A DNA stretch of 64,000 nucleotides from Tamarix chinensis. Taxonomy: Eukaryota > Streptophyta > Magnoliopsida > Caryophyllales > Tamaricaceae. Where the stretch lies: the NCBI GenBank assembly GCA_030549775.1, contig CM060173.1:33414110-33478109 (forward strand), written 5' to 3'. The notes beneath the pieces were generated by a model. It was not told the DNA's origin, searched no databases, and worked only from the letters and a program-made list of their open reading frames with translations. Positions 16,085 through 46,500 of the stretch are shown here, piece by piece (the first letter of the stretch is position 1; every line of letters starts with the position of its first letter). Position numbers and translations under genes: made by a program.

Positions 16085-16109
16085 TACGTTTATAAAAACG
16101 CTTTTGTGA

Positions 16110-16372
16110 GTCGGCTTATGAAGATGGTTGATGCTTTTGTTTGTTATCTTACGAATATGATCGATATTTTTGTATATCAAATTATGAAGATATTGTCCGG
16201 TGCTTTTGTATATATGTTAGCTAACAAAGATGTTCGGTACTTTTGCTCATAAGCTTACGAAAATGCTCGATGATTTTGTATATCAGTATATGAAAATGTT
16301 TTTGTATAATAGCCGATGATTTTGTATATTAGTGTATGAAGATGTTTTTGTATAATAGCTTATGCTACAAGT
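16110..16372 (+). repeat. Degenerate tandem repeat of about 40-45 bp
   Basis: Successive units share GATG.T.GATG.TTTTGTATATCAG.TTATGAA. At least five imperfect copies follow the final exon of the CACTA-borne module. They have no coding sense and probably arose by local duplication. Confidence 0.55.
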
Positions 16373-16598
16373 CGTTTATATAGCATTGTATTTAAAGGAC
16401 TGTTATGGCTTTGGGAGCTAAACAACTAATTATTTGGGAGCTAAACAACTAATTATTTTGTACTACACAATGATAATTATATATGGTGTAGTTAATTATA
16501 TATATATAAGCATACATTATTACTTCAGGTGGATATTGGATATTGTTGTAATACGTAATATCAATAAATTTTGTACATTTTAGCCAGTACAGGTTTTA

Positions 16599-16632
<34 letters not shown>

Positions 16633-16857
16633 AGGTTAAAATATGTATAACCAACAATATATATGTTGGCAATAGGTTTTAGTAATAGATATAATATTGT
16701 GTTTAATACTTTTACTCACAAATATGATTGTGTGGTTAATTCTTTTTATCACAGATATGATTTTGTGCCTAATACCTCTAGTCACATATATTATTTTGTG
16801 GATAATAGTTTTAGTAACATATATTGTTTTGTGAGTAATACTTTTAGTCACAGATAT

Positions 16858-20601: not shown

Positions 20602-21171
20602 GATATTATTTTTTGGTTAATACTTTTACTTACAAATATAAGTATGGGCACAAGTTTTACTAATAGATAAATATCTGTGGGCATTATCAATTATTCCCAA
20701 TAGATGATACATATCTATGGGTAAAACTTTTAAGTACAGAGTTTTTACCCATAGTTTTATCACAAAAAAATTCTATTAGTAAAAGCTTTTACCAATAGAA
20801 AAATATCTTTTACCAATAGATAATGCCTTGTTGGCACAAATCATTTATTTTGTAGTGAAGATTCGTGTTGATTTTTGGGGCCAACCAATCAATTAGAAAG
20901 TACTCCAAGGTATCCTCGCATGATTATATTGACTTGGGATGTTACACATGGTATCAAAGCAAAATTGCAACCGTGAGCTAAACTTGGATGAGCTAGTTAG
21001 CCCCCTAGTGGACAATTCTTGGGACAAATTGTATTGAAATAGTCAGTGGTTAAGGCACAATAAGGACACTGATTTTTTTGAATGGGGGTGAATGTAATAC
21101 CCCAAATTGAGTGAAGTGTTATAATAATTGATCTGGCTACTTATTTCAACTTGGTATACCATCCTTTTGGC

Positions 21172-21252
21172 CATTCCATCATAAGAACTCCATAGTTAAG
21201 TGTGTTGGCTATAGAGAAATTCTTAGGATGGGTGAGCAACCTGGAAAGTTTT
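21172..21252 (+). promoter_or_regulatory. 5S-rRNA-like domain of the Cassandra 3' LTR
   Basis: ATAAGAACTCCATAGTTAAG followed by TTAGGATGGGTGAGCAACC mimics the internal promoter and fold of plant 5S rRNA. The matching copy in the 5' LTR is at about 11987-12061 and is more diverged. This domain is known to let Cassandra be transcribed by RNA polymerase III. Confidence 0.8.
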
Positions 21253-21370
21253 GAAATTTTTTAAAAATTTCTCAAGAAGTGTGTGAGTGAAGACAAAGCG
21301 TGCTAAAATGACTTATGTTGATCTATGGGACCAACCAATCGATTAGAAAGTGCTTAGGTGTTACATAACC

Positions 21371-21719: not shown

Positions 21720-23660
21720 AAGAACAATTACTACCACATCCAAATATGCTAACTCTTGACCTTTAACGTGAAAAGAATGAGATGAAGATGCTACTATATC
21801 TTTCTCTTCTTGTAAAGAAGAATTTGTTCTCAAATTAGTATCACTATAATAAGAAGATAAATCACCAAAGTTTAAACTCCTAAAAACTCTTACATAAGAT
21901 TATGGTAATTCTAATTCATAAACATTATTTCCAAATTTTCTTAAGATTTTAAATAGTCCATCTTCTCTTGGCATTAGTTTATTCTTTCTTAAGTTTGGAA
22001 ATAATTATTTTCTTAAATGTAACCATACCAAATCTCCTGGTGAAAATATTTGTGTAATTCTATTTTTGTTCTCTTGGTTTTGGTACTTAGCATTAGATTT
22101 ATCAACATTACTCTTCATTTGCTCATGAAGTTTCTTATAGAATTCTATTCTTTTTTTAGCATTATAGTTCTTAATATCACATTTTTTAATTACAACGTAT
22201 AAATGGTAAATTAAGGATTAACTCCATGGATAACTTTATATGTTTTCAATTGAGTTGTATTAGAAAAACTCCTATTGTATGTAAACTCAACATGTGCGAG
22301 TTTTTATATCCTAATGTTTTGTACTCTTTTTAACTAATCCTTGTAGTAAAGTTCCTAAGGTCCTATTAGTCACTTTGGTTTGACCATCCATTTATGGATG
22401 GTGAGATGTACTAAATGATAACTTTGCACCTAAAATAGGCCAAAGTGTCTTCCAAAAGTAACTTAAATTCCACATTTCTATCCGATACTATACTTTTGAT
22501 AATACCATGTAACATTAATATTTTCTTGAAATATAGATTTGCCTCATGAGTTACATTATTCATTTTATTGCGAGGAATAAAATGTGTCATTTTAGAAAAC
22601 TTATCTACTATTGCTGTAATAGAATCATTCCCCCTTTGTATCCTTGGTAAACTTAAGATAAAGTCCATACACCCTCCCATGGCTAGCTAGGAACTGATAA
22701 AGGAGTATACAAACCTTTATGAAATAAAATCTTACTCTTTTTAAAAGTTATGCATCTCTCAAGAATAACTTGTACTAAATTTATCAATCTTGGCCTATAA
22801 AAATTTTCTTGTTATATTTCCATGGTTTTATAAACAGCAAAATAACCACCTATACCTTTCTCATGTACTTGCTCATCAAGTAAATCCCATACACTAGAAT
22901 GAGGTATACACAACTTATTAAGTTTGAAAAGAAAGTCATCCTGAAGCATATAATTTCCAAAACTATGATTCTTCTTACATTTATTATAAATTTAAAAGAA
23001 ATCTTCATATTTGGTATAAAATTCTTTCAACATTTCAAAATCTAATAATTTAGCATCCAACGTAAAACGTATCACAAATCTCTTAGATAATACATTTGCT
23101 AATATATTTTCTTCACCATCTTAATGTTTAATAGAAAACACGAAGGATTGTAAATAACTAATCCATTCTGCATGCCTAAGACTAATCTTCTTTTGCCCAT
23201 GCAAGTATTTTAGATTCTCATGATCAAAATACAAAACAAATGATTTAGGTCTCAAATAATGACTCCATGTTTCTAATCTTCTTATGATGACAAAGAATTC
23301 CTTATTATATGTTGAATAATTCATTTTAGAACCATTTAGTTTTTCACAAAAAAATGCATTGACCTTTTTTCTATAAGCTCTTGTATTTGTCTCTCTAATT
23401 CCTTAGTCTTTTTCAGATTACATCTATAGTTAGGTCAATTAGGGACGATATATGAAGCATTAAGTCTATAACATGTTCTATCCCTCTTTTAGGTGCTAAT
23501 CCTGGTGTTAAGTCATTAGAAAATATATCTTTATATTAATCAATAGACTCATATAGTTGAGGATTATTTTCATATTTCTCCCCTTCTAGGGATTCCTTAA
23601 CAATCATAGCATAGAAAATACCTTCTTCCTCAATATATTTTATTATAACATTTACATGTA
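21720..23660 (-). pseudogene. Ty3/gypsy retrotransposon pol remnant
   Basis: Read on the minus strand, the remnant starts with the lead-in to reverse transcriptase (NDLTPGLAPKRGIEHVIDLM, near 23500). It then jumps, near 23360, straight to RNase H (NAFFCEKLNGSKMNYSTYNK, with LYFDHENLKYLHGQKK at about 23210). The reverse-transcriptase core is missing. The integrase follows: a damaged H2C2 finger (about 22750-22900), then GGCMDFILSLPRIQRGNDS and IVSDRNVEF at 22680-22440, which carry the first two catalytic Asp residues. A C-terminal segment reads PGDLVWLHLRK (about 22030) and ends near NLRTNSSLQEE (about 21810). Stops and frameshifts occur throughout. No chromodomain was seen. No LTRs could be linked to it. 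Confidence 0.85.
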
Positions 23661-24333
23661 AAAATAAACTCTTTTTATTTTCAATTATGTTATCATTATC
23701 ATATTTACACTCTTTACAATACTTAGAATAAATAACATTGCCCTCAACTACAACTTAGTAAGATACTATATGTTGGATGGTAATTCTATTAGGATTCCTA
23801 TTCCAGCTCATTTATAAATAAAATCATAAGATGTGAATATTTAGATTGGGTAGAGGACATCTTGTATTTGTTATAAAGTGAAATGTTACAATATCAACAT
23901 ATAATTGTATATACCCAGTTATTTAAATTATTTCATGTTTAACCTTATTTTAATTATTAGCGGGATGATGATGTTGATACTAAAGAAAAAAAATTCTTTC
24001 ATGTTCATAGGTCCTTGAAAGATAATTTATTTTCTAATGACTAGGGCGAGTTTGATGTATATATATTTCTATATGTAGACATGATCTCTAATGAAAATTA
24101 TAATATTGAATGTGCTTCATATGTGGTTAACTTGATGAAGATGGCTCCACAATACCTTTTGTTAGCTCCATCTTCCTTTGACACGCATTAGGTACTAATG
24201 ATATTGCAACCATCTTTAGGGACCATATATTGGATGCATTCAATTGATGAGAATCCTCGTTCTTATCCAAAATTTCTTGTGGAAAGGTATATATTTATCT
24301 ATATAATGATATTAATTATAATCATACACACAT

Positions 24334-27300
24334 TGTAATCCCCCAAAATTTTATAAAACCCATATTTTAATAAATAACTTTTATTTGAAATAAATTAGCT
24401 TTTAAAATTATTTAGTTTAAGTATTTTGTGGATTTTTGAGTATATAAATGTGGGTAAGAGTATTTAATAAATTAAAAATAAATATTTTTTTATTTCATCA
24501 TATCATCTATATTTAAATAATTTTTCAAACTAATATTTTACTAAAATTATCCTTTTTGGACCAATATATTAAATTATATTGAATTAAATTATTAAATTAA
24601 ATAATTTAGCAAAAATATTACATTTTATTATTTTTTAAATTAAATTAAATTATTTCCCCTTTTTCCTTTTCCTTTCCTCCTCCTTTTTCTTCTTTTTCCT
24701 CCTTCCTCTCTTTTTTTCCTTTTTCTTTTTCTGGGTTCGGGCTACCACGCTTCCCATCCTTGCGCGCCTGGGTCGTTGGCCCATTCTCCCTCACCCAGCC
24801 ACACTAATGCCGACCCAACCCCCTTCCTTCTTTTCTTCCTCCCTTCCCTAGTGAGCGGGCCGGCCCAAATTCATTTTTCCCCCGTGCGCCGGCTTGCACC
24901 TCCCTCTCCCTCCTTTCTTTTCTTCTTCTTCTTCTCCACCTGCCTCAACATAGCAGCCCCAATCGGTCCCCTTCCCCATGACTGCCACCACCTGCAGCCT
25001 CCCTCTACCACCTCCTACAACAACTGCCACCACCTGCCTTCTTCCCCCTTCTCTCTCTCCCCTACCCTTTTTTTTCATTGTTTCGGAAATTGAGCAGCCA
25101 TGCACCCCATCCTGCATGGATCCCCTTTCCTTCCCTTTGTCACCTTCTCCCTGCCACCCTATGACACCCTACCCCCTAAACACTACCACCGACCGCCACC
25201 TATCCCCCTTACCCTCCTTCTTCTTTTTCTTATCCCCTTCAGCCATTTTCTGCCCATCCTTTCAAGCCCCTTACCCCATGACCTCCTCTCCTCTCTCATT
25301 TTCTTCCTCTCCCATTTCCACCCCTATTTTTGCATCACCACCACCCTCCGCCGCTCTATCCGCCTCACCAACCCCCTACACTGCTCCCCTCTACCCTCCA
25401 CCTCAACCTTACACCACCCCAATATTTCTCTCAAGCCATCCCGCAACCCTTCTTCCTCCCCACCTATTTTCTCTCCATTTGCCCCCTTCTTGGCAGTCCT
25501 CCTATAATGCCACCGATCGCCGCCTTCCGGCCGCCTCTATCATCACCCAACCCACCATTCAACTCCCTGCAACCTCCTCTATGATCCCCATACATTGTTT
25601 GGCCAAAACAAGCCCCCGAACCCCTTCATTTTTCCCTGCACTTTTTCTACCTTCTCAGACTCTCCACCTCGACCCACCTCGGCAGCCATCTTCGCCACCT
25701 TGCCGCCGCCATCACCGTCACTCTTGGCAGCCACCAACCCATCACCAGCCTCCACCTACACCCCCTCTTCACTCCTGCACCATCCCCTTGCCTCCAAACC
25801 TCCCCCATCTATCTTCTTTCCTAGCCCCAAACCTTTAACCCGAAAATAAGTAATTTTGCCTCCTTTAACCCCCTCTTCAAGACTCCCTCCTTTTTATTTT
25901 GCATGCAGCTCATGCTGTATGAGCAGATGAGTTGCTGCATGATTTAGAATTTTAGTACAACTTTTTTAAGGTATAATAGCATTTTAAGCTAAGTGTTTCA
26001 TTAATTAAATTTTATAAAGTTTTATGCTTGGATTCTTGTTTCTAACATGATAAGTTTTGATATAATTTTTAGGTGTTGATTTTGCTATTTAAAGCTTGAA
26101 TCTTTAATCGGGATACCAGTAAGATTCAATTATTTGCGGGATATAAGGTAATCGTTAAACCTCACTTAAATGCATGGATAAACGTATGTTTACACATTAG
26201 AATTTTTAATACATTATTATGTTTTATATATGGTTGTTAGTATGATTTATATGTTTGCTTGTATTGTTTAATAAAAAGGAAAGTATGCTCTTTTATGTGC
26301 TATGTGTGTAAATGTTGTCTAAGGGGAGGACTTGATTATTAATGAAAGTGTTAAAATACTTATCCATGTCATAATATGTTATTGTGACTATTTATGCATG
26401 AATAATATTATTATGAACCCTAGGGGCATTTTAGTAATATTTCTTATGCTAGATTATGGCCTAATATGTATGGGTGATAATAAGTATTATATTAAAATAT
26501 AATGGTTGGTGGAGTTGGATATTGTTAGTGGAGTATTAATATTATTATTCCATTTAGTAATGTTAATTTAATAAAAGTGATGTAATAAAAAGAGGTAAAG
26601 TGTTAATTTTGGAGGCAAAAGGGAAATATGGTAATTTTATGATTAAATGGAAAAATCGTAATTTTATAAGCAAAGGGGTATTATGGTAATTTTATAAGTA
26701 AAGGAGTATTATGGTAAGTTTGGGAGTAAAGGGTAAAGTGGTAATTTTGGGAGTAAAAAGGGCAATATGGTAATTTTATAAGCAAGTGGAAAAATGTTAA
26801 TATTATAAGTAAAGGGGTATTATGGTAATTTTGGGAGTAAAGGGTAATATGGTAATCTTGGAAAAGAAGGGCAAAATGGTAATTTTTTAAGGAAAGATAA
26901 AAATGGTAATTTTGGATGAAAAAGGGTAAAATAGTAATTTGTAAAGTAAAAGGGGTGTTATGGTAATTTTATAAGTAAAAGGGTATTATGGTAATTTTGT
27001 AAATAAAAGGATATTATGGTAATTTGGAAGTAAGGGGTAGAAGGGTAATTTTGTAAATTAAAAGGACATTTACGGCAAACTTGGGAGTAAGGGGTAACTG
27101 GGTAATTATGATAACAACGAAGGATAAGTTGGTAATGAAATTATGATTATAAAAGGGTAATTGGATAATTACAATAATAGAGAAGGGTAATTTGGTAAAT
27201 TAGCCGATAAAAGGGCATTATGGTAACTTATAATAATGGAGAAGGGAAATATAGTAATTATAAAAATGGAGAAGGGTAAATTAATAATTATAAATATGGA

Positions 27301-29229
27301 GAAGGGTAAATTAATAATTATAAATATGGAGAAGGGTAAATTGGTAAATTATAATTATGAAGAAGGGTAAATTAATAATTGTAATTATGAAGAAGGGTAA
27401 TTTGGGATTTATAATAATTGAAAAGGGTGAAATGGCAATTATAATAATTGAGAGGGGTAAAATGGTAATTATGATAAAGGAGAAGGGCAATTTAGTAATT
27501 TATCCAACTAAAGGGGCAATTTGGTAATTTAACCGACTAAAGGGCAAATTGGTAATCATTTAACCAACAAAAGGGGTAAAATAGTAATCATGATAATGAA
27601 GAGGGTAATTTGGTAATTTATCCAACTCAAGGGTAATTTAGTAATTATAACAAAGGAGAAGGGCAATTTGGTAATCTAACCAACCAAAAAAGGACATATG
27701 TTAAGCTTAACAATGATGAAGGGTGAATGGTGATCTAAAAAGTGTAGGAGATAATTTGGCAACCTAAAACGAGTAAGGGGTAATATGGTAATTTGTCAAG
27801 TAAGGAAGGGATGACTTAGCAATTATATAAGGGGTAAATGAGTAATTTGCACCTAACATGTTGTTGTGATTGTGAAATTTTATAATATGACTCAAATAAC
27901 ACTAATTAGCAAGGTAAGAGTATTTTATAATTAGTAAGTATTACAAGAACGAATCCTAATTTGGAATTATATGAGACTATGATGGCCTTAATGATTTCTC
28001 TATGTTATCTTGGATAACCGCCTGAATAAGAAATGACTAATGATATCCGAACGATTGAAAGTGAATAAGTAACTGATTATTGTGCTTTTTGTGATCACCT
28101 TTAATTAAGACACTAATACTTGAAGTGAAAGACCTTGAGATCGGGAATGGTGGCTCTTTAGGGGTCGCTATCCTAAATACATAGTATAGCCCACGATTAT
28201 TCTGGTATTTGCTGGTGTGCCTTTGTGCCCCAGCCAGGCCCTATATCTTACTCTATCTAGCTCTACGGACCTTGTTAGGGGGTATGCATACTTATGGATT
28301 AGGTGTCCTTGTCGGTAGGGTACTAAGTAGCTTTATGCACCAGTACGACCAGGGTACCTTTGTGTCCCTGGGTTCTTGATTGAAGGGTACTGAGTAGCTT
28401 ATATGCACCGGTATGACCAGTGTACCTTTGTGTCCCGGGTTCTTGATCTCCCATCCGAGGCAAATAAATGGAATTGTTGTGCTGATTAAAGAAAGAAAAA
28501 ATACTAATCATGAAAGTGAAAGATTATGAGCCGGCCTAGTTGAATTATGATATTGATTACCGATCCACCAGTTATAATAGTGGCCTAGGAGCGTGTTGCC
28601 CTGGCAAGTGATTATGAGTACCAATTCTCTGGATATAATAGTGGCCTAGGAGCATGTTGCCCTAGATGATGTTGATATATATTCCAATCCACCGACAATA
28701 ATAGTGGGGGTCCCGAGCTCAACAAAATCAGTCATGAATGTGAATAAGGTTATAGAAAAATGCTAATCACTTATAGTGGAATACCATGTGAGTCGGGGCC
28801 AGACCGGTCCACCGACGAATAATAGTGGCCAGGACCATTTTGCCCTGGAGACCAATCCACCGGCATATAATAGTGGTTAGGTGCTTTCTGCCCTATAAGT
28901 GACCGATCCACCAGCTATAATAGTGGGGTTCCCGCACTCACATGGATATAAAATATGAGAGTTGATTGAATAATAATGGACTAATGGCTTAAGGCCGAAG
29001 GTATCGATCATACATTGCGACCTATTGATATCTGATGTGATTGCTAATTATGTGAATGTTATATGTACACATCTTGTTATATATGTATATAGATTTGTAT
29101 CATGTGTGACATTACGGGCCTGCTTTTAAGTGTAATTTTAAAGGGTTACTCATTACCATAGTACTAAAGGGTTCCCTTTGTGGGGCCCATGCCTATTCAA
29201 TGGGCAGTGTCCCTTGTAGGTCATTTCAG
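24334..29229 (+). mobile_element. Long LTR (4.9 kb), 3' end missing, inside a Ulp1-like intron
   Basis: It begins TGTAATCCCCCAAAATT after the flank CACAT and is collinear with the LTR at 38417-43531 along nearly its whole length. Shared parts are a TATATAAATG box (24441-24450), a pyrimidine-rich tract (24650-25850), a segment closing in AAGGTAATCG (about 26146), a GGTAAT minisatellite (26580-27850), an ATAATAGTGG repeat block (28555-28930) and AATGGGCAGTGTCCCTTG (about 29199). Similarity stops near 29229, about 300 bp before the expected TGTTACA end, so the 3' end and its target duplication are lost. A 286-codon Pro/Ser/Thr-rich open frame at 24978-25838 lies in the pyrimidine tract and is best explained by composition. 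Confidence 0.82.
26580..27850 (+). repeat. GGTAAT minisatellite inside a long LTR
   Basis: Imperfect units of about 20-33 bp built on AAAGGGGTATTATGGTAATTTT. They include a perfect tandem run of a 30-bp unit (GAGAAGGGTAAATTAATAAT...) near 27278-27340. The same array, in the same position, is in the LTR at 38417-43531. Confidence 0.85.
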
Positions 29230-32200
29230 ATTTATAGTTTTTATGTCATTTAAGAATTATTATCATTTAATATTAAGTATAGTGTGAGAAACTAATAAGA
29301 TAATGTAATTAATATTTTATTTTTGTAGTATCCACACCAACAAGATAGGGTAAGTTGTGGATACTATATGATGATTTTTATGAAGGAAATCATTTGCAAA
29401 CATTAAGCGAGGTAAGGAGCAGTATTTATTTATTTATTTTAGTTCATATTAATTATGTTTATCTTTACACATTAATAAAACATGGTCTTTTCCATCTTGT
29501 GTAGGTGTATCAATATCATGACTTTCTTAATTATCAAAATAACAAGGTTAATGAAGTTAGGAAAGAATAGTTAGATTTTATTATAAGTTTTTATGATGAT
29601 TATGTGTGAAATCATGTGTAGCTTTAATTTTTTGTAATTCCATATTAAATATGAATGAAAAAGAATTTTTCTTAAGGCTTTGTATGCAAAGTATATAATC
29701 GTTTAGTCTAGTTTCATGTTGTTTTGGATGAGGCAAATACTTATAATACTAGTAAAATTATCATGGAAACATATAAAGATTTCTTGTAGAAAAAAAAAGT
29801 AATCTTAAAAAAATATTAGGAATGCATGATGGTTATGCATAAACCTTGTTGTGTCTACCCATACCATAGATAATATACAGTGGTTGGGACATAGAACCGC
29901 CGTGTAATGTAACACGTTAAACAATACATGGTGGTTCTGTACCATTCTAAAATTTACTATTAAAAAATTTCGTTCAAATAGAAAATTATATTCAAACATG
30001 AATGGGTTCTATCACTATAATTGATATAAGTCTGGTTGTAAACCATCTTCACACAAATTACAAGGAAAAAGTAAATCAAGATAATAGATTTGATAAATAC
30101 ATAATGAGGATACTTCATAACATAAGTAAGAGTTTAGAGTTTAATTCAAAAATGGAACCAAAATACATAAAGTAAATATTTTAGATGAAAATGATAAAGA
30201 AGGGAAAATGGTTTAAAAAATAACTAGATAACATAGCTCTTTGACTCCCCTACCCGAGCATGCTACGATATCACTCCACCCCAATTAGAGCATCGTAAGC
30301 AATGTAGTCATCTAATGGGTCCTCATTTATTTACATAGGCTAAAAAAGGGCCTCTGCTTATGGGAATGAGTAGCACTTATAATACGGATGATTAGTATAC
30401 CTCGTACTAAGAAAGGAAACCATACAGCTAAGAAAGGTCTCATAAGTTCATAAGACCACAACAAGAGATGACATGCACATAAGATGAACTTACTGATTTA
30501 TTTGTTACTCTCTAAACCGTATAGTAATAGTGTAGTGTTGATTGTTCATGATTTTATTTATGTTGGATTCAGGGACCCCATTATTCTCAATCGATGGATC
30601 GGTAATCAAGTACAACCCTAGGATAGAATGCTAACTAGTCCTAACCCACATGGTGTTCCACTGTAAGTAATTAGTTTATTATCAATAGTTATGATTATTA
30701 AATGTTTTAATTAACTCAAGTTCAAGATACCACTATTCTCAATTAGTGGAACGGTAACAAGGTATAACCCTAGGGCAAGACCTTCCCAACCACTATTCTC
30801 ATATAGTGGAACATATAACTGGCCCTATAATAAGTGATATTCCATTTTAAGTCATTAGTGTATTATTCATGCTTTATTTATTTCAAGGTCATCACACAGT
30901 CATGTATTCATACTCATATAAGGCACTAACCCAACACATACCCCAAAACAACCCTACTTCCCCTTAGAAACCCTAATCTCATAACTCTAGCATATTCTCT
31001 TCTCTAGTTCACATTTAGTCCCCAATTTTCCTAAAAATCTTAACACATTATTATGAACCACATATTCAAGATTCATGGTTTATTACCCTTATGTTACACA
31101 TTTGACAATATCCTACCCTTAGGGTTACTATTCCGGCCTCCACCAAAAATCCTAATTTCTCATACCTAGCATAGTCCCTTCTCTAGGGCTTAGTTAGTTC
31201 CCAAATTCAAATTTAATGCATAGAATGCAATTTTTAACCATTAAATCAAAATCATGGCCTAACCCCCACATATTGCACATGAGATAATAACCTACTCTAG
31301 GGTTATTGTTTGGGGCTCCTCTAAAAAACTTAATTTATCTCTTTAGTCATAACTATTTCCTTAAACCTTGTATGGCTACCAAATTTAATATACATTCCCA
31401 AAATATTATTATTGATATCATATCCTAAGGTTGAATTCCAACTCCCCCATCTTTTATATGTGATAATGACCAACCTCTAGAGTTACCACTTGGACCTTCC
31501 AAAGCCCTAATTTTACATTTAGGCCATAACTCTTTCCATAGAGCTCAAATGACTCCTCAAATTTGTAAGCCCACCCAATATTCCATCATTAACATTTTAT
31601 TCAATCCCCCACCTTATGAACATGTGATCATGACTCCACCCCTAGGATTTACTAATCACCCATGTGACCTTTCCCTTCTTTTATTGTAACACCTCCAAAC
31701 TTTACTATTGAAAAATTCTATTTTTAAAATTTATATATGGAAGCAAATACAGTAAATTTTAGGGTGCTACTGTCACACTTAGTAGTAGGCTAATTTCCCT
31801 CTATTGTTTCGATACCAAGTGTTAAGGATAAAAATGTACTTTGTACAAATTAAAAGCTATAATTATAAAATAGAGTAGTGTAATAGTTAGAATACAAGAA
31901 ATACAACCCACTAATTGTGGATACACTTTAAAGTCAATGAAAAGAGAATACAAGAGATTATAAAGAACTTACATAAACTTTTCCTAGATAGTCCTATACT
32001 CTTAACCCAATGAGTGAATCTTGAATAATACTTGTGAGCTAACCTGCAAATGTCACTGCCCATTGAATAAATAGAGGCCCAAGAAAGGAACCCTTTAGTA
32101 CTATGTACTGAGTAACTCTTTAGACAAGACTAATATGTAAGGCTTGCATGCAACACATAAAGTGTAACATATCAAACATATGAACATGGAATAATGCATA

Positions 32201-32424
32201 TATTAATTGAGATGCAATAATCATTCAAATAGCTACATGCATCAAGATCATATGCCACAAATACTCATTCACTTAGAAATAATAAAACTTACCAATGGAA
32301 CATCTAAGTGATACACTTTATAGTATAATTAGAGAGCCACATCATACTCAACAATGCACACCACACATTTAACTCATAAATAGGTCATAGGCCCATCAAT
32401 ACAATACCATACACCATCCATTAT

Positions 32425-32835
32425 GGTAGGCACAAAAAACTACTACCAAATCATAGGTAGGCTCAAAAGCTACTACCAAAACTCAAGTAGGCTCAAAGGC
32501 TACTACTGACACACAGGTAGGCTCAAAGGCTACTACCAAAACTCAAGTAGGCTCAAATGCTGCTACCAAAACATAGGTAGGCTTAAAGGATGATACTGAT
32601 ACACAAGTAGAATCAAATGCTACTATCAAAAATTAGGTAGGCTAAAAGTTTTCTAATGATATATAGATAGGATCAAAGGCTAATATTGATACACAGGTAG
32701 GCTCAAAAGCTACTATCAAAACTCAAGTAGGCTTAAAGGTTACTTCCAAAACTTAGGTAGGCTTAAAGGCTACCACCGATATACATGTAGGCTCAAAGGT
32801 TGCTACCAAAATTCAGGTAGGATCAAAGGCTATTA
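32425..32835 (-). repeat. Tandem repeat with an exact 30-bp period
   Basis: About 13-14 units of GTAGGCTCAAAGGCTACTAC followed by a variable CAAAACTCAG-like part, in strict 30-bp register. It lies in the minus-strand LTR just left of the CACTA insertion. I did not see this array in the other long LTRs. Confidence 0.85.
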
Positions 32836-33469
32836 ATGATATATACTAATAAACATTTTCATTTGATTATCACACACACTACAAAATAATTAACTTTTTC
32901 CAACAGGCCTTATCTGTTGGTAAAAGCCATATTTCTGTATGCAAAAGTTTTTACCAACAGATATTTTTCTGTGACAAATCTGTGGGTAAAAACTCTGTGC
33001 TTAAAAGTTTTACCCACAGATACGTAAGATCTGTTGGTATTAGTTGCTTATACCCACAGATATTTATCTGTTGGTAAAATTTATACCCACAATTATATCT
33101 GTGAGTAAAAGTATTAGCCACAAAATGATATCTGTGACTAAAAGTATTGTCCACAAAACAATATCTGTGACTAAAACTATAACCCACAAAAGAAAATCTG
33201 TGACTAAAAGTAGTATCCACAAAATTATATCAATTGCTAAAATTATATATATATATATATATTATCTGTTAGTAAAACGACAATAATGTCCATAACACCC
33301 GTTGTAGCAATATTTACTTATAACAATAACTTATCTTTATATAAAATATAGTACACCATACATAATCATCGTTCTTTAGTTTAACTATCAAAACAATAAT
33401 AGTCATATAGGTATAATATATATACAACTTGTAACCTATGCTAACATATAAGACATCTTCATTAACATA

Positions 33470-33563
33470 TCAAACACCATCCTCTTCATTCCCATCCTAT
33501 TTAGCATCTCCAACGACTTCTATGTATTCAATATTTTCTTTGATAATTATCAAGATTTATTCC
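33470..33563 (-). pseudogene. Last exon of the CACTA-borne module
   Basis: After a TTTTTTTCAG acceptor (33564) the minus strand holds a short exon with in-frame stops that ends DGNEEDGV-stop. It corresponds to the exon at 15978-16084 in the other CACTA element. The 5' counterpart of this module in the present element is the GC-rich tract at about 36100-36510 (minus strand). The captured ZYP1 exons lie between the two. Confidence 0.45.
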
Positions 33564-33942
33564 CTGAAAAAAATATGCACGTAACTTAATTAGATTAATA
33601 TAAATTCGCCTAGGATATTATTTAACTGGCGTGGTGTCTTTTAATATGCATGTAATTCCAAGTTTTTAACTTGCAATTTCAATTACCAATACCTACCTTA
33701 GCTATAAAAGTCCAACAACAATCAAATACTAGTATTAAAAATGAAGTGATTAGCACATAACCTCATTTCGAAACAACAATATGCTAAAAGTATGTTTGAG
33801 CTACTGAGTATGAGGATTAGAGGACATTAATAAATATGTAAAGTAATGAAAATACTTGTTATGGTATCAAATAAGTAAAGCAAGATTTGCAGGGTAGAGA
33901 GCAGTGGAAAGGAGGAACAATGTGTATCTTTCCAAAGCATAC

Positions 33943-34726
33943 CAAAGCACTATGTTCCTCCTGAATTTTCTCAAAGTGTTGCCGTGAATCTTCATTTCAT
34001 TTCTCAAGTCTAGCTTCACATTTCTTCTCCATTTCTACTATAATTTTGTCAGCTTGAAGAACAAACAACCTTCAATGCATGTGTCCACCAAACAGTACAA
34101 TAAAAAGTCATGGAAAATAGGGCAAACCTTTTTTTCTCATGGTTAATGATATCTTGCTTTTCTACCTCATACTTCTTCTTGATGTCGTTTATGGCCTGCT
34201 TAAAGAGTTATCATAGCAGCGAAAAACAATATAGAACTACTAAATTCATATTTGCATTGAGGTTTAACATATGTCGCACCTGATCATTCTTCTGAGATAT
34301 CTCCTTCAAATGTCGTGACAATTCTAACTGTTTACTCTCTAGCAATGAATCATACTGCTTTTTAGCTTCCCCAAGTTTACTTTCTGAAGCTGCCAACAAG
34401 GCTTGAATCTAGAAAAAACAATAATTATTGAAATAGTCCTATACTCGTCAATTTATTTTCCACAAAAATGGAATGACCTCGGCTCGTTGCTCTTCAAGTT
34501 GTTTCTCCCTTTCAGTATACTGCAGAATGAGTTGCTCTTTTTCTTCCAACATATTGCAGAAATTGATGGCCTGCTTCTCTAAAGCGTTAACTTGTTGGCT
34601 CTACTTTGCAATCTCCTTTTGCAAAAAGTCAGTGTCCTCCTCCTTCTTATGTATCTGTGCCTGCAGTCTCTCTATAATCTGCTTGTTCTCAGATTCTACT
34701 GTTGACAACTTCAGCTTGAGATCCTC
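33943..34726 (-). pseudogene. ZYP1: Captured fragment of the synaptonemal complex gene ZYP1
   Basis: Four consecutive minus-strand exons with intact GT..AG introns: 34726-34478, 34408-34280, 34195-34128 and 34052-33943. They encode coiled-coil sequence matching plant ZYP1, for example [18 protein letters not shown] followed by [17 protein letters not shown], then AINDIKKKYEVEKQDIINHE, and DSRQHFEKIQEEHSAL. ZYP1 is the transverse-filament protein that bridges homologous chromosomes in meiosis and controls crossover number. The fragment covers part of the long coiled coil upstream of the C-terminal domain. It is dead as a gene: TAG at codon 42 of the first exon, TGA after ARLEK in the last, and a shifted frame at the third exon's end. 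Introns are retained, so capture was at the DNA level and not through a spliced RNA. Confidence 0.9.
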
Positions 34727-36074
34727 CTGAAAGGTTAAGAATGCAGAGTGAGCATGATATTAAGGTTTGCTAAATTGTTTTAAGAAGGTTTTATGGTTGT
34801 AAAAGGAGATAATGCAGTATAATGATATTATATGAGAATCTTTAAGAGCAAAACCGAAAGGACCAACTCCATAACGCATGACCAAGAAGCTATCAAACCC
34901 TAAAGCTACTGTTATGGTAATCTATAAATGAAATAGGTAAAATAATAGGATATATTATACAGTGAACTTTATTAGCTATCAGTGTATCTAGCATGAAGAC
35001 ATCCAAGATTCAGCATGCTTATTCTTGATATTCATTCCTTAGGTTGGTCAAGCTACATACATTCAAATATACTACCTTGAGGTAGAGTACAATACCATGA
35101 TATATCTCTTGATTAAGTGAGCTAATGTAACATATATAAAGTAGGGCATGACATAAAACAATCTTTCAAGTAGCCAATTCAAGACTATTAGATATCGAAA
35201 CAAGGGTTTCAAAGCCCAAGACACAAAATTGGATAGTTCAAATCAATTAATTTCAATTAAAGGCAATACCATTTCAACTATTTCTATACATTCAAGTTAA
35301 GAAAAATAACCATACAAATGACCAACTTCATAATTTCACTTAAAATCTAGGATTTTAGGCCCGAAAATACAATTCGATTGAATTCTATTAATTTATTTAA
35401 ATTGAATGTTTAGAAATATATTTAGACATATTTTGTAACATAACATATAATCAATTGCTCAAAAATAATAAAAGAAATATCCAATTTAGCATAATTAGGG
35501 TTTTTGAGCCCGGAACGCAAATACGATCAATTCTTCCTAAAGTATATAAATTGACAGTTTGGAATTGTAATTAAATGTATTCTAATGTAATTTATATAAT
35601 CAATTGAATAAAACAACCTGATTACACAATCCAATTTAGACCCGCAAGAGTTTTGACCCAAAAATCCAATTCCAATCAATTTCACATAATTTTCCTAAAT
35701 CAATACTTTTGATATGAAATTAATACATTTCAAAAGATATTATAAAATCAATTGAGTAGAAAAACTCAATTATACAATCCAATTCCATTACACACGAATT
35801 TTGATCTAAAAAGTCAATTCCAATGAATTCCACATATATTTCTCAAATTGACGGTTCTAACATAAAATTAGATACATTTTAAAGCATAACATAAAATCAA
35901 TTTTCCCAAAATAGCTTAATCGGATGAATCCGAAAAATTCGGACACAACCCGGCCTAAAATCATATTTTCACAAATCAACCAAATGTACTGCAATTCACC
36001 ACTCTAAATTAATCATACAACATATATATACATAATTACACAATCAATTTAGCTTATCATAAGCTTATTCATAC

Positions 36075-36523
36075 TCAATTAATCAAAACAAGGGTTAGGG
36101 TTTTCAAAAATTTATACCAAACGAAACTAACAAATCTGAATGGGTGAAGGCCGGAGAAGATACGTCGAAGTTCGAGGATTGCTCGCCCGCAACTAGTGAG
36201 GCTCGTCGTGGCCGGAGGATGGCAGCACAACCTGTGCTGCTTCTCGTGGCTGTTGCTGCGCACAGCTGCTGGTTGTTGCAACGCTGCAGCTGGCAGGCAC
36301 AACAGTGGCGTGCAGTTGGAGTGGCGACACCGATGGTGGCCGACGGTCGGCAGTTGACAATGGAGGAGCTGGTGGCGACGTCGATGGGGCGCAGAGGCAG
36401 AGGGAAAGAGACTGTCGGGAAATAACAGAAGAGAAGGGAGAGAAGAAGAGAGAAAGGGAAAAGGAAGAGGGTCGGGGTCTGGGTTTTTTGTTTTTTTTTT
36501 TTCAAATACACATATATAAATAA
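36075..36523 (-). pseudogene. GC-rich first-exon-like tract of the CACTA-borne module
   Basis: This minus-strand tract is much richer in G+C than its surroundings and is followed by TTTGTTAGTTTCGTTTGGTATAA and then a long AT-rich intron-like stretch. The same join occurs on the plus strand at about 13570-13600 in the other CACTA element. A 135-codon open frame exists, but it lacks a recognisable domain and the counterpart does not share its protein sequence clearly, so it is more likely leader or promoter-proximal DNA than a conserved protein. Confidence 0.35.
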
Positions 36524-38416
36524 ATACTATACATCTAAAAATATTCTTGGAAAATTTTATCTACAAATTATTTAATAAAAAATCATTTCAAAAGGATCCG
36601 AAGGCCTAAAATAATATAAGAGTTATATAAATAATTTCGAAAATATTTTCAAAAAAATTTACTAATGAGTATAAATATCTAGATTATTTACAAAAATATT
36701 TTATACGTCCTCGAAATAATATCTTCTTTTTAAACTTTAGAAAATATTTATAAAATAAACTATAATAGAAAGACACTCATAAAAACTATAAATAATTTTC
36801 AGATAAAAATAAAAGACTTATCCGAATAAATAATTTTATTTTAAATAAATCGTTACACTTATTAAAATAAAAAATAATATTTCAAATAAATCAAAAGAAA
36901 TATTTTTATAAATTTTTGAGCGACTAAAAATAAAATAACACATTTTCGAAAAGTCAGTTATAAGCCAAAACGGAAAGAAAAACATAAATAAGTTGTGAAA
37001 ATCTTTAATTTAATATTTTTTATTATCTTATCGACCTCGTAAAAGTAAATAAATTCAAAAATAGAAATATTTACTACAGATAAAGATATTAAAAGGTTCT
37101 ATAATAGATGACATTAAAGATAATCTTTCAAATACATTCGAGAAATATTCTTATAATATTTTAAACGACTAAAAATAATTTAACACATTTTCAAAAAGGT
37201 CATTTGTAAACCCTAAAAAAATAATTCTATTAATATCAATTAATTATTATAATATTGACTATAATAATTATAATTTTTTTCTTACAAATAATATAATTAA
37301 TTTTACTGCTAATAATAATAATATTATTAATTATCTAATAATATTATTAAATTAAAATTTTAAATAATAATTAGTATTATTTAAAAATATTTAATATAGA
37401 ATTAATATTTTATAATGTATTATTAAGATAATATTAATCATAATTTATAATAAAATAATAATTATTATTAAAAATAATTAATAATGGGAAATAAATATAA
37501 ATAATATAAATATTAATCATAATTTCCAACAATTAGTAATAATATTTTTATTAAAATAATAATAATAATAATAATAATAATGTCCTAAAATATTTATTCT
37601 TAGTAATAATTAATAAAGAATTATATTTATAAGAATAATATAACTCGTTGTTTTAAATAAATTAATAATAGTATCTAATAATTAATAATATATTATTAAT
37701 AATGTGAATGAATATTGATAATATTTATTATTGTTAAGATAATATATATTTGAATGATAATTGATAGTATTTAATAATAAATTAATTTAATAGTAAATGG
37801 TAGTAGATATAATATATATTATTTGATTATAATTGTTAAAAGACACAATTATGAACAATATTAATATAAAAAATTAGAAATAAAATAATAATTAATAATA
37901 ATATATGTAAACTATTATTTATAATAATGACTAATGACTTAATTATTATTATTATTATATTAAAAAGAATAGAATTAATCATTATTAAAATTATATAAAA
38001 ACAAATATTATTGTTGAATTTTATAAACACTAATACCAACAGATAAAAAATTGGGTATTAGTTCTATTGGTGTAATGCTACTAATAATCACAGATATAAG
38101 TGATGATAAAAGATCTGTTGGCATAACAGTTTAATACCATCAGATAAAAAATTTCTACGGGAAAAACTACATTATTGCCCACAGAAAATTATCTGTTGGT
38201 ATTAGTTACTTTTACCAACAGAAAAAATATCTGTGCCTAAGTTTCTGTTGGAAAAATTCAATTATTTTGTAGTGACAATACCAATTATATCTACATGAGG
38301 GGGAGATCATGAACCCGAAGACATTAAGGTATACTAGTCATACTGATTCATAAAAGTAGCATATTATCCTACTGACTATAAACCTAGGGACACAAAAATA
38401 TCCTGGTCTCACTGGT

Positions 38417-41400
38417 TGTAATCCCCCAAAATTTTAGAAAACTTATAATTTAATAAATAGTTTTATTTGAATTAAATTAGCTTTTAAAATTATTTAGTTT
38501 AATTATTATATGGACTTTTGAGTATATAAATGTGGATAGGAGTATTTCATAAATTCAAAATAAATATTTTATTATTTTATCATATTATTTTTATTTAAAT
38601 AATTTTTCAAAGTAATCATTTACTAAAATTAGCATTTTTGAACCAATATATTAATTTATATTGAATTAAAATATCAAATTAAATAATTTACCAAAAATAT
38701 TATATTTTATTATGTTTTAAATTAAATTAAATTATTTTTCCCTATTTTTTCTTTTTCCTTCTCTTTCTTTTTCTTTTCCTTCTCCTTTTCTCCTTTTCCT
38801 CCTTCCTTTTTTTTCCTTTTTTTATTTTCCTGGCTCAGGCTGCCAGGCCGGCCTCCCTCTTTGTGTGTTGGGCCAGAGGCCCGTTTCTCTCCCTCTCTTT
38901 CCCCTCCCGTGCGTCTTGACCGAGCCAGACTGGCTTACATCTTTTTTTTCTTTTCTCCCCAGACCGGGCCGACCGCTCGTTTTTTTGCCCCCGTGCACCG
39001 GCCTACAAATCCCTCTCCCTCCTTTCTTTTCTCTTCTTCTTCTCCACCTACCTCGACACAGCAGCCTCCTACTGCCACCATGACTACCACCATCTGCAGC
39101 CTCCTGTTGCCACCTCCTGCAACCACTACCACCACCTGCATTCTTCTCTCTCTCTCTCTCCTACCTTTTTTTTCATTGTTTCGGAAACCGGGCAGCCATG
39201 CACCCCATCCCGCATGGCTCCCCTTCCCTCCCCGTCGTCACCGTCTCCCTGCAACCCTAAACACTGTCACTGACTGCCACCTATTCCCCATACCTTGCAT
39301 CTTCTTTTTCTTCTCCTCTCCACCCTCTTTCTGCCCATATTTTCAAGCCCCTTACCACCCCTTCTCGGCAGTCCTCTTGTAACGCCACTGATCGTCGCCT
39401 TCTGGCCGCCTCTTCCGCCACCAACCCACCATTCAACTCCCTACAACCTCCTCTACGATCCCTATCCATTGTTTGGCCGAAAAAAGTCCCCGAACCCCTT
39501 CATTTTCCCTCCTCTTTTCCTTCCTTCTCAGCCTCTCCATCTCGACCCACCTTGGCAACCAACTTTGCCACCTTGCCGCCACCATCACCGCCTCCCTTTG
39601 CCGCCACCAACCCATCCCCAGTATCCACCTACACCCCTTCTTCACTCCTGCACCATCCTCTTGCCTCCAAACCTCCCCCATCTATCTTCTTTCCTAGCCT
39701 AAAGACCTCAACCCAAAAATGACCATCCCTCACCTCTACCCGCTACCTTCGACCCAATTTTCCCATCCCAACTTGCATGTGGTTCACGTTGCTCATGCAG
39801 CGTGAGATCCAAATTATTTTGGGAGTTTTATGTTTAATTATTGAGGTACATTAATAGTTAAATAAAGTGTGTTATTAATTAAGTTTTTTTTGTATAAAGC
39901 TTTATCTTTTTTCCTACTTCTAATATAATAAATTGACATTCTTTTTAGGTGTTGATTTTGCTATTTAAATCTTGAATCTTGAATCGGGATACCTGTAAGA
40001 TTTGATTTGTAAGGGATCTAAGGTAATCGTTAAATCCCACTTAAACACATGGATAAACGTATGTTTGCACATTAGGATTTTTAATATGTTAGTATAAATT
40101 ATATGTTTGCTTGTATTCTTTAATAAAAAGGAAAGTATGCTCTTTTATGTGATATGTGTGGAAATGTTGTCTGAGGGAAGAATTTGATTATTAATGAAAG
40201 TGTTAATTACTTATCCATGTTATTTTATGTTATTGTGATTATTTATGCATAAATAATATTATTGTGAGCCCTAGGGGCATTTTAGTTATATTCCTTGTGC
40301 TAGATTATAGCTTCATAGGTATGGGTGATAATAAGTATTATACTAAAATATAATGGTTGGTGGAGTTGGATATTATTAATGGAGTATTAATATTACTATT
40401 CCATGTGGTAATGTTAACTTAATAAAAGTGGTGTAATAAAGGGGGTAAAGTAGTAAATTTGAAGGCAAAAGGGCAATATGCTAATTTTACAAGTGAAAAG
40501 GGGTATTGTGGTAATTATGGAAGTTAGGCAAATTATGGTAATTTTATAAGTTAAGGAAAAGATGGTAATTTCTCAAGTAAAGGGGCATTATGGTAATTTT
40601 GGAGTTAGAGGGGAAAAATAGTAATTCTATAAGTAAATTGTAATATGGTAATTTTTTAAGTAAATAGAAAAATGGTAATTTTATAAGTAAGAGGTATTAT
40701 GGTAATTTTGGGAGTAAAGGGTAATATGGTAATCTTAGAAAAGAAGGGCAAAATGGTAGTTTTGTAAGGAAAGATAAAAATGGTAATTTTGGATGTAAAA
40801 GGGGTAAAATAGTAATTTGTAAAGTAAAAGGGGGTGCTATGGTAATTTTATAAGCAAAAGGGTATAGTGGTAATTTTGTAAATAAAAGAATATTATGGTA
40901 AATTGGAAGTAAGGGTAGAAGGGTAATTTTGTAAATTAAAAGGACATTTATGGAAAACTTGGGAGTAAGGGGTAACTTGGTAATTATGGTAACAACGAAG
41001 GATAAGTTGGTAATTAAATTATGATTATAAAAGGGTAATTGGATAATTACGATAATAGAGAAGGGTAATTTGGTAAATTAACTGATAAAAGGACATTATG
41101 GTAATTTTTAATAATGGAGAAGGGCAATATAGTAATTATAAAAAAGGAGAAGGGTAAATTAATAATTATAAATATGGAGAAGGGTAAATTAATAATTATA
41201 AATATGGAGAAGGGTAAATTGGTAATTATAATTATAAAGAAGGGTAAATTAATAATTATAATTATGAAGAGGGGTAATTTGGGATTTATAATAATTGAAA
41301 AGGGTAAAATGGCAATTATAATAATCGAGAAGGGTAAGATGGTAATTAAGATAAAGGAGAAGGGCAATTTGGTAAATTACCCAACTAAAGGGGCAATTTG

Positions 41401-43531
41401 GTAATTTAATCAACTAAAGGGTGAGTTAGTAATTTTTTAACCTACTAAAGGGGCAATTTGGTAATCATGATAGCAAAGATGGGTAATTTAGTGATTTATC
41501 CAACTAAAGGGCAAGTTGTTGATTGTAATAAAAGAAAAAGGCAAATTGGTAACTTAACCAACCAAATGGGAGACATGTTAAGTGTAGTAGTTATGAAGGG
41601 TGAATGGTGATCTAAAAAGCATTGGAGATAAATTGGTAACCTAAATCAAATAAGCGGTAATTTGATAATTATGCAACATAAAGGGTAATATGGTAATTTG
41701 TCAACTAAGGAAGGAATGACTTAGCAATTATATAAGTAAGGGGTAAACAAGTAATTTGCACAGAACATGTCGTTGTGATTGTGGAATTTTATAATATGAC
41801 TCAAATAACGTAGATTAGTAAGGTAAGAATATTTGATAATTAGTAAGTATTACGAGAACGAATCGTAATTCAGAATTATATGAGATTACGATGGCCTTAA
41901 TGATTTCTCTGTATTATCTTGGATAATCGCCTGGATAAGAAACGACTAATGATATCAGAACGATTGAAAGTGAATAAGTATCTGATTATTGTGCTTTTCA
42001 TGATCACTTTAATTAAGACACTAATACTTAAAGTGAAAGACCTCGAGATCGAGAATGGTAGCTCTTTAGGGGTCACTAACCTAAAGACGTGGTTTAGCCC
42101 AGGATTATTCTGGTCTTTGCTGGTGTGCCTTTCTGCCCTAGTCAAGCCCTATATCTTACTCTATCTAGCTATACGGACCTAGTTAGGGGGTATTCATACT
42201 TATGGATTAGGTGTCCTTGTCGGTAGGGTACTGAGAAGCTTTATGCACTAGTACGACCAGGGTACCTTTGTGTCCTTGGGTTCTTGGTTGAAGGGTACTG
42301 AGTAGCTTGCATGCACCGGTATGACCGGTGTACCTTTGTGTCCCGGGTTCTTGATCTCCCATCCGAGGCAAATAAATAAAATTGTTGTGCTGATTAAAGA
42401 AAGGGAACATACTAATCATGAAAGTGAAAGTTATGAGCCGGGCCTAGTTGAATTATGATATTGATTACCGATCCACCGGTTATAATAGTGCCCTAGGAGT
42501 GTGTTGCCCTGGCAAGTGATTATGAGTACTGATCCATCGGATATAATAGTGGCCCAGGAGCATGTTGCCCTGGATGATGTTGATATATATTCTGATCCAC
42601 CGACAATAATAGTGGGGGTCCGAGCTCAATAAAATCACTCATGGATGTGAATAAAGTTATGGAAAAATACTAATCACTTATAGTGGAACACCATGTGAGT
42701 TGGGGCTAGACCGGTCCACCGGTGAATAATAGTGTCTAGGAGCATTTTTCCCTAGAGACTGATCCACCGACATATAATAGTGGTTAGGTGCGTTCTGCCC
42801 TATAAGTGACCGATTGGCCAGCTATAATAGTAAGGTTCCCGCACTCACATGGATATAAAATATGAGATTGATTGAATAATGATTGACTAATGGCTTAAGG
42901 CCCAAATGTATTGATTTTGTACTATGACAAGACTTAAGGCCTGAAAGTATCAATTGTTTATAACTACCTATTGATATCTGATGTGATTGTTAATTATGTG
43001 AATGTTATATATACACATCTTGTTATATATGCATGTAGTTTTGTATCATGTGTGAGATTACGACCTGCTTTTAAGTGTAACTTTAAAGGGTTACTCAGTA
43101 TCATAGTACTGAAGGGTTCCATTCATGGGGCCCCTGCCTATTCAATGGGCAGTGTCCCTTGCAGGTCCAATTTCAGGTGCTATTCAAGTGGGAAACGGGA
43201 AAGAGCGTAAGGATTATCTGGACTCTTAGGTTTCTCCCTTTACTTTTACTTTCTGGTTTAAATGTATCTCTTATTCTTGTAACCACCATTGGTGGAACCT
43301 ATTCCTATAAAATGTTTACTTGCGCCACTCTGATTTTAAAATGGTTTGAATTTCTATCAATTGATATTTTGTTCTTTAGCCTTAGCACTTGGTACTGGAA
43401 TGGTATGAGTGAACTGGTCTGGTACTAAGTGTGGCAATAATATCCCCAAAATTCACCGTTTAATATTTTGGCTTCCGCAATTTCTTTTAATAAAACAAAA
43501 TTTTTCAGTAGTGAATTTTGGGGGTGTTACA
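38417..43531 (+). mobile_element. Solo LTR (5.1 kb) of a Ty3/gypsy-type element
   Basis: It starts TGTAATCCCCCAAAATT and ends TTTTGGGGGTGTTACA, with the perfect duplication CTGGT on each side (38412-38416 and 43532-43536). Internal direct LTR repeats, primer-binding site and pol are all absent. Order of parts: TATATAAA (38523-38530), pyrimidine-rich tract (38740-39770), AAGGTAATCG (about 40021), GGTAAT minisatellite (40440-41750), ATAATAGTGG block (42470-42840), AATGGGCAGTGTCCCTTG (about 43145) and the GGTACTGGAATGG / TACTAAGTGTGG tail. It is the best-preserved full-length reference copy of this LTR family in the window. Confidence 0.93.
40440..41750 (+). repeat. GGTAAT minisatellite in the 5.1-kb solo LTR
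   Basis: Same array type and position as 26580-27850, with units of about 20-33 bp on the AAAGGGGTATTATGGTAATT theme and the 30-bp GAGAAGGGTAAATTAATAAT unit repeated near 41145-41220. Collinear with the other copy, so it was present before these insertions. Confidence 0.85.
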
Positions 43532-46500
43532 CTGGTACACAAAGGCATACAGTATCCTACTGATAAGGACACCTAATCTATAAGTATCCATAAGATGTAG
43601 GTCCTGCCTGGGGTGCTAAGTCATGTAAGCAAAATCTAGAATAATCATGGGCCCACGTCTTTAGGGTAGCGACCCTAATGAGTCACCATTCCCAATCTTA
43701 AGGTCTTTCACTTTAAATATTAGTATTTTAACTAGGGTAGCCATGAGAAGCACACATTAATCACATGCTTAACCAATTTTTTTAATATTTCCAATGTTAT
43801 GATGTAACCAAAATCAAGATTATTATCAATGTTAACACGAGTAATCCATTAAGGCCATCTTAGGCTAAAATGATCAAAATGCCCTAAGGCTAAGGCTACC
43901 TATTTACCATCCATTCCCATCACAAACTCCATTTTCTTTATCAACATGTCATAAAGTAGCAATACACCATAATTAAACTATTGATCATAAAGTCAAGTTA
44001 CCCGACACACCAAATGACAATTTTACACATAAAACTCTAACTTTCACTTCTAGATCAACCAAAAATACATTTTCATGCTTAATCAACAATCAATGCACTT
44101 CCTACATGTTCATGAGAATAACAACATAGCATACTCTAATTGACCAAGTTACCCCTAAAACATGTATATTTTGTTAGCATATTCATCATGGTACACTCTA
44201 AATTACAAAAATACTCCTAGATCCTATAATATTAATCATGCTTGAATAGGTGATACGAAGGCAATAAACCCCTATTCTCATATTTAATATCAATTAATAC
44301 TTATCATGAAGGTTTATTAGATTAATTGCTATATTACATGAAAATTTTCTAAAGTGCCTCTAAACCATATATTATTGATCATCATGCTCAAATAAGTGCT
44401 ATTAATACCGTAAAGCCCTATTATCATATTTAACATCAATTTATATCTATCATGCATGTTTATTAGACTAATCACCACATTACATGTAAAATTACCAAAA
44501 TGCCCCTAGACCATATATTATTGATTATCATGCTCAAATAAGTGCAACTAAGACAATAAACTCCTATTATCATATTTAACATCAATTTATACCTCTCATA
44601 CATGTTTATTAAACTAATCACCATATTACATATAAAATTACCAAAATACCCCTATGTCATATAATACTAATAACCATACCCAAACATGCATTACTAACAC
44701 TATAAACCCCTATTATTATACATAGCACCAATTATTACTTATCAGGCATATTTATTATGTTAACTCTCATTGTACATGTAAAATTACTAAAATGCCCCTA
44801 GGTTATAAAACATTAATAATCCTATTGAAACATGTATTTTTAATATCATAAACCCCTATTATCATTTTCAAGACCATATAACACATAATAAGTATTTTTA
44901 TTAAGATGATCACCACCATACATTAAAATTACCAAAATATCCCTAGGCCATAAAATATTGATATTTCTAATGAAACATATATTTATAATCTACCAAACTC
45001 CTATTTCCATTCTTAGCAACATTTATAACACATTAGTCATCCCAATTAGGATTAAATATTATGAAGGGTTCAAATAACCAAATTTCCCCTAGGGCTCATA
45101 GTAGCAATATTGTTAGTACAAGTTTCCATCCATACTCCACCTAGCATTTTATATACCCGTAACATCCACCATCAAATATTAGACCAATTCTTATTAACCC
45201 TTTCTCACCCATCACATTATACACAATATACATGCACTCTTTTTCCTTTTTTTCCAATATAACATTTATAATGATGGGACCATTTGTAAAACGTCATATC
45301 TACACAAAACATATGCCAAAAAACTCTAATGTGATAATATACAATAATCCATACATTTTAGTGGGGTATAATAGTTACTTTATTTCTAGCAAAAATAAAC
45401 TTTACTGGTATCTGTTTTAAAATACTCAGGCTCCATTTAATAAAATTTTATATCTAAAAATAATATCACAAATGCAATATTAATATTATATGAATAAAAG
45501 GATGGTTTTTATTAAAGATATTTATTAAATATAACATTACCAAAATACCTTAAACCTTAATATTAACTCATGATCCATGTGCAACGTGAGCCATACAAAA
45601 AATATGGCCAAAGTAAATGGAAAGGGAAGAATGGTGTGCCTCAAGTAAAGGGTTAGAGGGAGGTGGTGGTGGATGTTGGTGCTAGTTATTGGATGTAGAG
45701 ATGAAGTAGGAGGTGGATGGTGGTTGGTGGTCGTGGTGAGGTGGCTTGGGGTGGCATGAGTTGTAGAAGAAAGTTATATAGAAGGGAGGGAGAAGAGCAT
45801 GAAAGGAGAAGAAGATAAAGGAAGGCAGAGAGGCAAATAACTCAAGTGAGGTGGTGTAGGGGGAGGTCGAGGTGGCAGCAAGCAACTGTGGGGCTAAGGT
45901 GAAGGTGGAAAGGGAGGGGTAAAAGTTAGATAAGGGTGGTGGGTGTAGGAATGTTGAAGGGAAGAAGGAGAAAAGGGAGAGGTAAGCTACAAGGGTGTTT
46001 AGTGATGGTTACCCGAGGTAGTGCTGGGGGGAGGTAGGGTGAAGGAGATGGTAGTGTAGAGGCTGGGTTGGTGGTGGAGATGGTTGAGGCGATGTTGAAG
46101 GAAAAATAGGGGAGAATATAGGAGAAAAAACTAGAAGAGAATATTGAGATAAAAGAGCCAATCATGAGGGAGAATAAGGTAGAAAATAAGAGAAGAAGGA
46201 AAGGAAAAAGAAGAGGAGGAGAGGGAGGCATGTAGGGTTAGGTGTGAAATGCCCCAAAATTATTTATTTTAAGAAATATAATTAAATATGTATTTATTAA
46301 GAAATTTATTTATTTATTTGAAATGGGAAGGAGTTAATTAGAGCAAATTAATAAGAATTTATAAATATTTTTATAAAGGAAAAGTTGATCTTTTTGCTAA
46401 TTAAAAAGGAATTTAAGAGAAATATTTTAAAACCCCTAAATTATCCTGAAAAGAAAATTTAATATTATTTTAATTAACTATTTTATTCTAAATACCCAAA

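Follow-up and report, generated by a model that had tools for sequence, protein, structure and literature searches.

CACTA (En/Spm) transposons have short repeats clustered near both ends, and the autonomous members of the superfamily encode a TNP2-type transposase. Capture of host genes by CACTA elements is already established. The Pack-CACTA and other Pack-TYPE elements reported from Arabidopsis, rice and maize have terminal inverted repeats, target duplications and captured host coding DNA, with no transposase (PMC8903248), and the route proposed for Pack-CACTA capture is the aberrant excision of nearby insertions, with complementary terminal deletions leaving a hybrid that encloses genomic sequence (PMC13317346). 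Here we describe an element with these same features in Tamarix chinensis. It lies in a window of 64,000 nt (GCA_030549775.1, contig CM060173.1, positions 33,414,110-33,478,109 of the forward strand), and all coordinates below are positions in this window. The element, e1 (32877-38274; 5398 bp; minus strand, which is that of its exons), holds what we identify as four exons of ZYP1, the gene for the transverse filament protein of the synaptonemal complex, and it has a sister without this cargo, e2 (12123-20857). We are confident that e1 is a non-autonomous CACTA (En/Spm-type) element that took up a segment of a host ZYP1 gene at the DNA level as cargo and has decayed since.

Both ends of e1 carry CACTACAAAATAATT, and its left (32877-32906, plus strand) and right (38245-38274, minus strand) terminal inverted repeats form a 30-bp pair identical at 28 of 30 positions. 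Directly outside this pair lie the two ACA target-site duplications (32874-32876 and 38275-38277), bearing out the CACTA ends and ACA duplication proposed in an initial annotation of this DNA. Duplications of 3 bp characterize CACTA insertions, and both elements have them, ACA for e1 and AAG for e2; a table of grapevine CACTA elements likewise gives 3 bp for four families (PMC2528002), whereas the duplications of rice and maize CACTA elements are given elsewhere as 5 nt, in conflict with 3 bp (PMC8903248). Short repeats crowd near both ends of e1: subterminal repeats occupy 32907-33277 on the left, where 33-bp units with the motif ATCTGT are included, and 38028-38244 on the right. Of the 35 copies of ATCTGT/ACAGAT in the whole window, 12 lie in one 400-bp end of e1, 5 in the other and only two in the 4598-bp middle. 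No Pfam transposase match was found in the six frames of e1 (E<=0.01), and a transposase would therefore be needed in trans; this is what a non-autonomous CACTA member would show.

The four exons stand in collinear order on the minus strand, separated by three GT..AG introns: exon A (34478-34726, 249 nt), intron A-B (34409-34477, 69 nt), exon B (34280-34408, 129 nt), intron B-C (34196-34279, 84 nt), exon C (34128-34195, 68 nt), intron C-D (34053-34127, 75 nt) and exon D (33943-34052, 110 nt). The acceptors of exons A to D are CAG, TAG, CAG and AAG, and the donors are GTCATT, GTGCGA, GTTTGC and GTATGC, the last being a donor-like site that follows exon D. A search of 5.8 billion proteins with the exon stretch returned plant synaptonemal complex proteins, with a best E of 5.4e-28. 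Of its 2267 candidates, 300 reached E<=0.01, and the best 120 of these 300 served as our homolog set; many of the 120 are named synaptonemal complex protein, others are hypothetical and several unnamed, and a few bear different names, among them one myosin heavy chain-related and one putative ribosome-binding protein. The spliced fragment of 185 residues aligns with every one of the 120 listed homologs, at 47.6-65.1% identity, and does so over almost its whole length (query 1-3 to 180-185) in 117, with a single gap in 108. The three top alignments run through the A-B and B-C junctions without a gap and have a one-residue gap at the C-D junction. The fragment corresponds to residues about 440-625 of plant ZYP1/SYCP1, as numbered on an 876-residue homolog (P0003). 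When the 120 homologs were run against the window by tblastn, all 120 matched inside the exon region, and none gave a match outside it anywhere in the 64 kb (E<=1, low-complexity filter on). Relatives of the fragment's own length comprise 16 proteins with a top identity of 64%; nine of them are named and come from other plants, and seven are unnamed.

These alignments, together with the presence of the protein motif quoted in the initial annotation, support ZYP1 as the captured gene. That annotation had allowed for another coiled-coil family as the best match; plant synaptonemal complex proteins came out on top instead. Pfam gave only seven weak matches, all under the curated cut-offs, and solved structures gave only three, at E 0.23-0.32, against the plant synaptonemal complex proteins of the protein search. 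The retained introns speak against a retrocopy origin. Because removal of the introns neither drops nor adds residues, we read the event as a capture at the DNA level, again as first proposed.

The initial description of four ordered exons with intact GT..AG introns holds for the order and the splice sites, which are canonical, but not for the coding sequence. There are two in-frame stops, a TAG in exon A and a TGA in exon D, and the frame breaks at the third junction, where the 68 nt of exon C do not fit the reading frame of exon D. No open reading frame of a ZYP1/SYCP1-like transverse filament runs through the exons; judged by its sequence, the ZYP1 stretch in e1 is a gene fragment and not a gene. 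If both stops arose neutrally after the capture, their number among 546 sites would correspond to roughly 5-7% change, within a very broad interval (0.6-25%).

The extent of the cargo can be gauged from the sister element. e2 lies 12 kb from e1 on the plus strand, inverted relative to it and flanked by AAG duplications, and contains no ZYP1 match. Its ends resemble those of e1 (12123-12370 with 38274-38029, 80%; 20596-20857 with 33138-32877, 82%), and the two elements have one arm in common, with 62-73% identity in the main aligned pieces. The alignment runs from 38274/12123 to about 35203/14376; between 35677 and 35203 five 100-column blocks reach 73-83% identity, and the remaining blocks range from 38% to 87%, some of them thinly aligned, with three at 44-54% in a leader-like part described below. 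Similarity breaks near 35203 and returns, in pieces, from 33607/15933, so that 33608-35202 (minus strand) is the stretch of e1 that has no clear counterpart in e2. We take this stretch to be cargo because the sister has the same ends and arm but no ZYP1. The middle of e2 (14378-15932) differs from that of e1, and it has neither a Pfam match nor a stop-free run of 90 codons.

e2 also resembles e1 in having no Pfam transposase match in its six frames (E<=0.01). It contains a long terminal repeat (LTR)-like insert (16858-20601; TGTAATA..TGTTACA) that lies between GATAT duplications and is probably a solo LTR; without this insert e2 measures about 5.0 kb, near the 5.4 kb of e1. An empty site is available for e2: its flanks, joined with a single AAG, match the repeat copy at 21114-21354 without a gap across the junction (identical columns number 154 of 198 in the left flank and 36 of 44 in the right). 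e2 sits in a repeat that has other copies at 5559-6009 and 20895-21354.

The events that would have produced e1 can be outlined as follows. The captured ZYP1 segment would be at most 1.6 kb, with four internal exons, the three complete introns between them and probably some intron sequence on either side. Aberrant excision, by which nearby insertions become a hybrid element through complementary terminal deletions, is a route that would fit. The cargo would then have been carried between ends that a transposase could move in trans, and later inserted at the present site. The decayed fragment is no longer able to encode its part of ZYP1. The time and the source of the capture are matters that we infer. 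Upstream of the exons and on the same strand lies a G+C-rich leader-like stretch (36118-36484, minus strand), a candidate leader that ends in TTTCGTTTG/GTATAA, a possible splice donor. This stretch is only weakly alike in e2, over the three low-identity blocks mentioned above, except for its TTTCGTTTG/GTATAA end, which is present in both elements. If it is transcribed, the leader could splice to the ZYP1 exons and give a sense chimeric RNA with an early stop; read in the ZYP1 frame, such an RNA would hit the stop in exon A.

A tree gives a lead on where the fragment came from. It was built from 101 distinct rows: the fragment itself plus the 100 homologs that were left once duplicates among the 117 near-complete ones had been merged, with the three incomplete ones of the 120 excluded. 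The fragment clusters with 11 rows (support 99/90). One of these is unnamed, and the other ten are from Rumex, Dionaea, Ancistrocladus, Nepenthes, Gypsophila, Beta, Amaranthus, Spinacia and, twice, Chenopodium quinoa, all of them Caryophyllales; the next row outside is Dillenia (97/89). The terminal branch of the fragment is long (0.35), and the tree tool warns that the placement of such rows is unsure; because of both, the apparent position of the fragment beside Caryophyllales ZYP1 is a lead, one that makes this order, or near relatives of it, the probable source of the window.

Several observations weigh against the capture of ZYP1 by e1, or limit how far it can be taken. The motif CACTACAAAA alone is no rarer than chance in this A+T-rich window, with 6 matches (<=1 mismatch) where a mean of 8.34 is expected. 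The CACTA case therefore depends on the pairing of the ends, on the duplications and on the sister element; the features that go beyond chance are the long inverted repeat pair, the duplications and the terminal sequences common to e1 and e2. The window yielded no empty site for e1. The parent ZYP1 gene is not seen, so capture from the same genome is our inference. It is not certain that e1 gained ZYP1 rather than that e2 lost it, which two elements cannot decide, and 33608-35202 gives only the outer limits of the captured segment. Nor do the fragment's changes at conserved columns by themselves show relaxed constraint. Of 52 columns that are invariant in 12 relatives, the fragment deviates at 7; when the same test was applied to each of the 12 relatives, with the fragment among the others, 11 deviated at 0 to 2 of 45-47 columns, but the annotated Rumex protein deviated at 8 of 53, and the count for the fragment is for that reason no proof of lost constraint.

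An objection to capture is that the fragment might be what is left of a resident ZYP1 gene, or of a segmental duplicate, into which CACTA ends came by accident. Nothing beyond the exons themselves speaks for this. The two ends match each other and are flanked by duplications, a sister element exists without the exons, and the homolog queries detected no further ZYP1 sequence in the 64 kb (E<=1), so that the full ZYP1 locus which the initial annotation had kept in mind as an alternative did not appear. We give this explanation hardly any credence. One might also propose a chimeric gene whose product, part of a ZYP1-like protein, acts on the synaptonemal complex, given that the splice sites are intact and that the exons of soybean Tgm-Express1 are reported to be spliced into chimeric transcripts (PMC1947982), but any such protein would have to survive both in-frame stops and the broken frame, and of the explanations considered here we find this one the least credible.

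Action through RNA has precedents in other plants: miR820, carried in rice CACTA elements, targets OsDRM2 (PMC3459959), and a review describes captured sequences in maize Helitrons, Pack-MULEs and Sirevirus elements as reservoirs of small interfering RNA (siRNA) (PMC13317346). The captured fragment could accordingly be proposed to yield small RNAs, whether siRNA or microRNA (miRNA), that lower ZYP1 and alter crossovers, an effect for which the Arabidopsis loss of ZYP1, with map length raised 1.3- to 1.7-fold, offers a parallel (PMC8040812). Against this, the ZYP1 exons are sense to the leader-like stretch, and the window holds no antisense copy of the exon stretch. The exon stretch (33943-34726), folded alone, forms no hairpin (z 0.46; 13 of 20 shuffled sequences fold equally well or better), and this comparison does not support a miRNA hairpin there. 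We consider such an effect on ZYP1 through small RNAs very unlikely. The broader proposal, in which a mobile CACTA family bearing ZYP1 sequence makes meiotic small RNAs that damp ZYP1 and ease the crossover limit, a transposon thereby tuning host recombination, seems to us slightly less likely again. Capture of ZYP1 as cargo, followed by decay, remains our preferred explanation, and its consequence for the host is likely none.

The surroundings of e1 are rich in repeats. A direct repeat of about 4.8 kb (24333-29229 and 38416-43176) is 84.5% identical over 3913 columns and 78.5% over 980; both copies share the start TGTAATCC/TGTAATCCCCC, and e1 is situated in the interval, some 140 bases ahead of the second. 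No target duplication or primer site was seen at the inspected edges of this repeat, which may be an LTR pair or a segmental duplication. The stretch 29230-32876 has no Pfam match in six frames. It includes a tandem array (32425-32832) of 30-bp units, that is, 10 codons, reading by eye as approximately VGSKATTKTQ in one frame, which stops about 45 bases before e1. Farther out are a retrotransposon RNase H remnant at 23124-23402 on the minus strand (PF17917, E 2.8e-17), an open stretch at 22414-22686 that looks integrase-like by eye and has no Pfam match, and a second tandem array at 44200-44963 with about five copies of a 146-bp unit.

We return to the described systems. The Arabidopsis CACTA end CACTACAA used in the Pack-TYPE work is also the end of e1 (PMC8903248). 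With host coding DNA between inverted repeats and no transposase, e1 structurally fits Pack-CACTA, from which it is set apart by the identity of the captured gene, ZYP1. Pack-TYPE elements are further known by their copy number, the packFinder pipeline being described as clustering them and discarding singletons (PMC8903248); within our window e1 has one sister, with the same ends but a different middle. Within the literature on ZYP1 or the synaptonemal complex together with transposons or gene capture, from which subscription journals were mostly absent, we found no report of a captured ZYP1.

e1 thus adds a central meiotic gene to the list of genes captured by plant transposons, and its cargo-free sister makes a good control. 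ZYP1 is reported to limit closely spaced crossovers in Arabidopsis (PMC8040812), and the capture would carry greater weight if it were true that copies of the fragment make small RNAs against this gene. Rice elements with miR820 belong to the same superfamily as e1 and carry a miRNA against OsDRM2, whereas folding of the ZYP1 exon stretch of e1 gave no hairpin. Grapevine Cactavine-5 is, like e1, a CACTA element with transduplicated host sequence and 3-bp duplications; unlike e1, it is given as 21-25 kb long, with the captured sequence downstream of a transposase gene (PMC2528002). The soybean CACTA element Tgm-Express1, at about 5.7 kb, is of similar size to e1, and its captured fragments, from five host genes, likewise keep their exons and introns (PMC1947982). 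e1, by contrast, has a single recognised gene fragment, which is broken and whose transcription is hypothetical.

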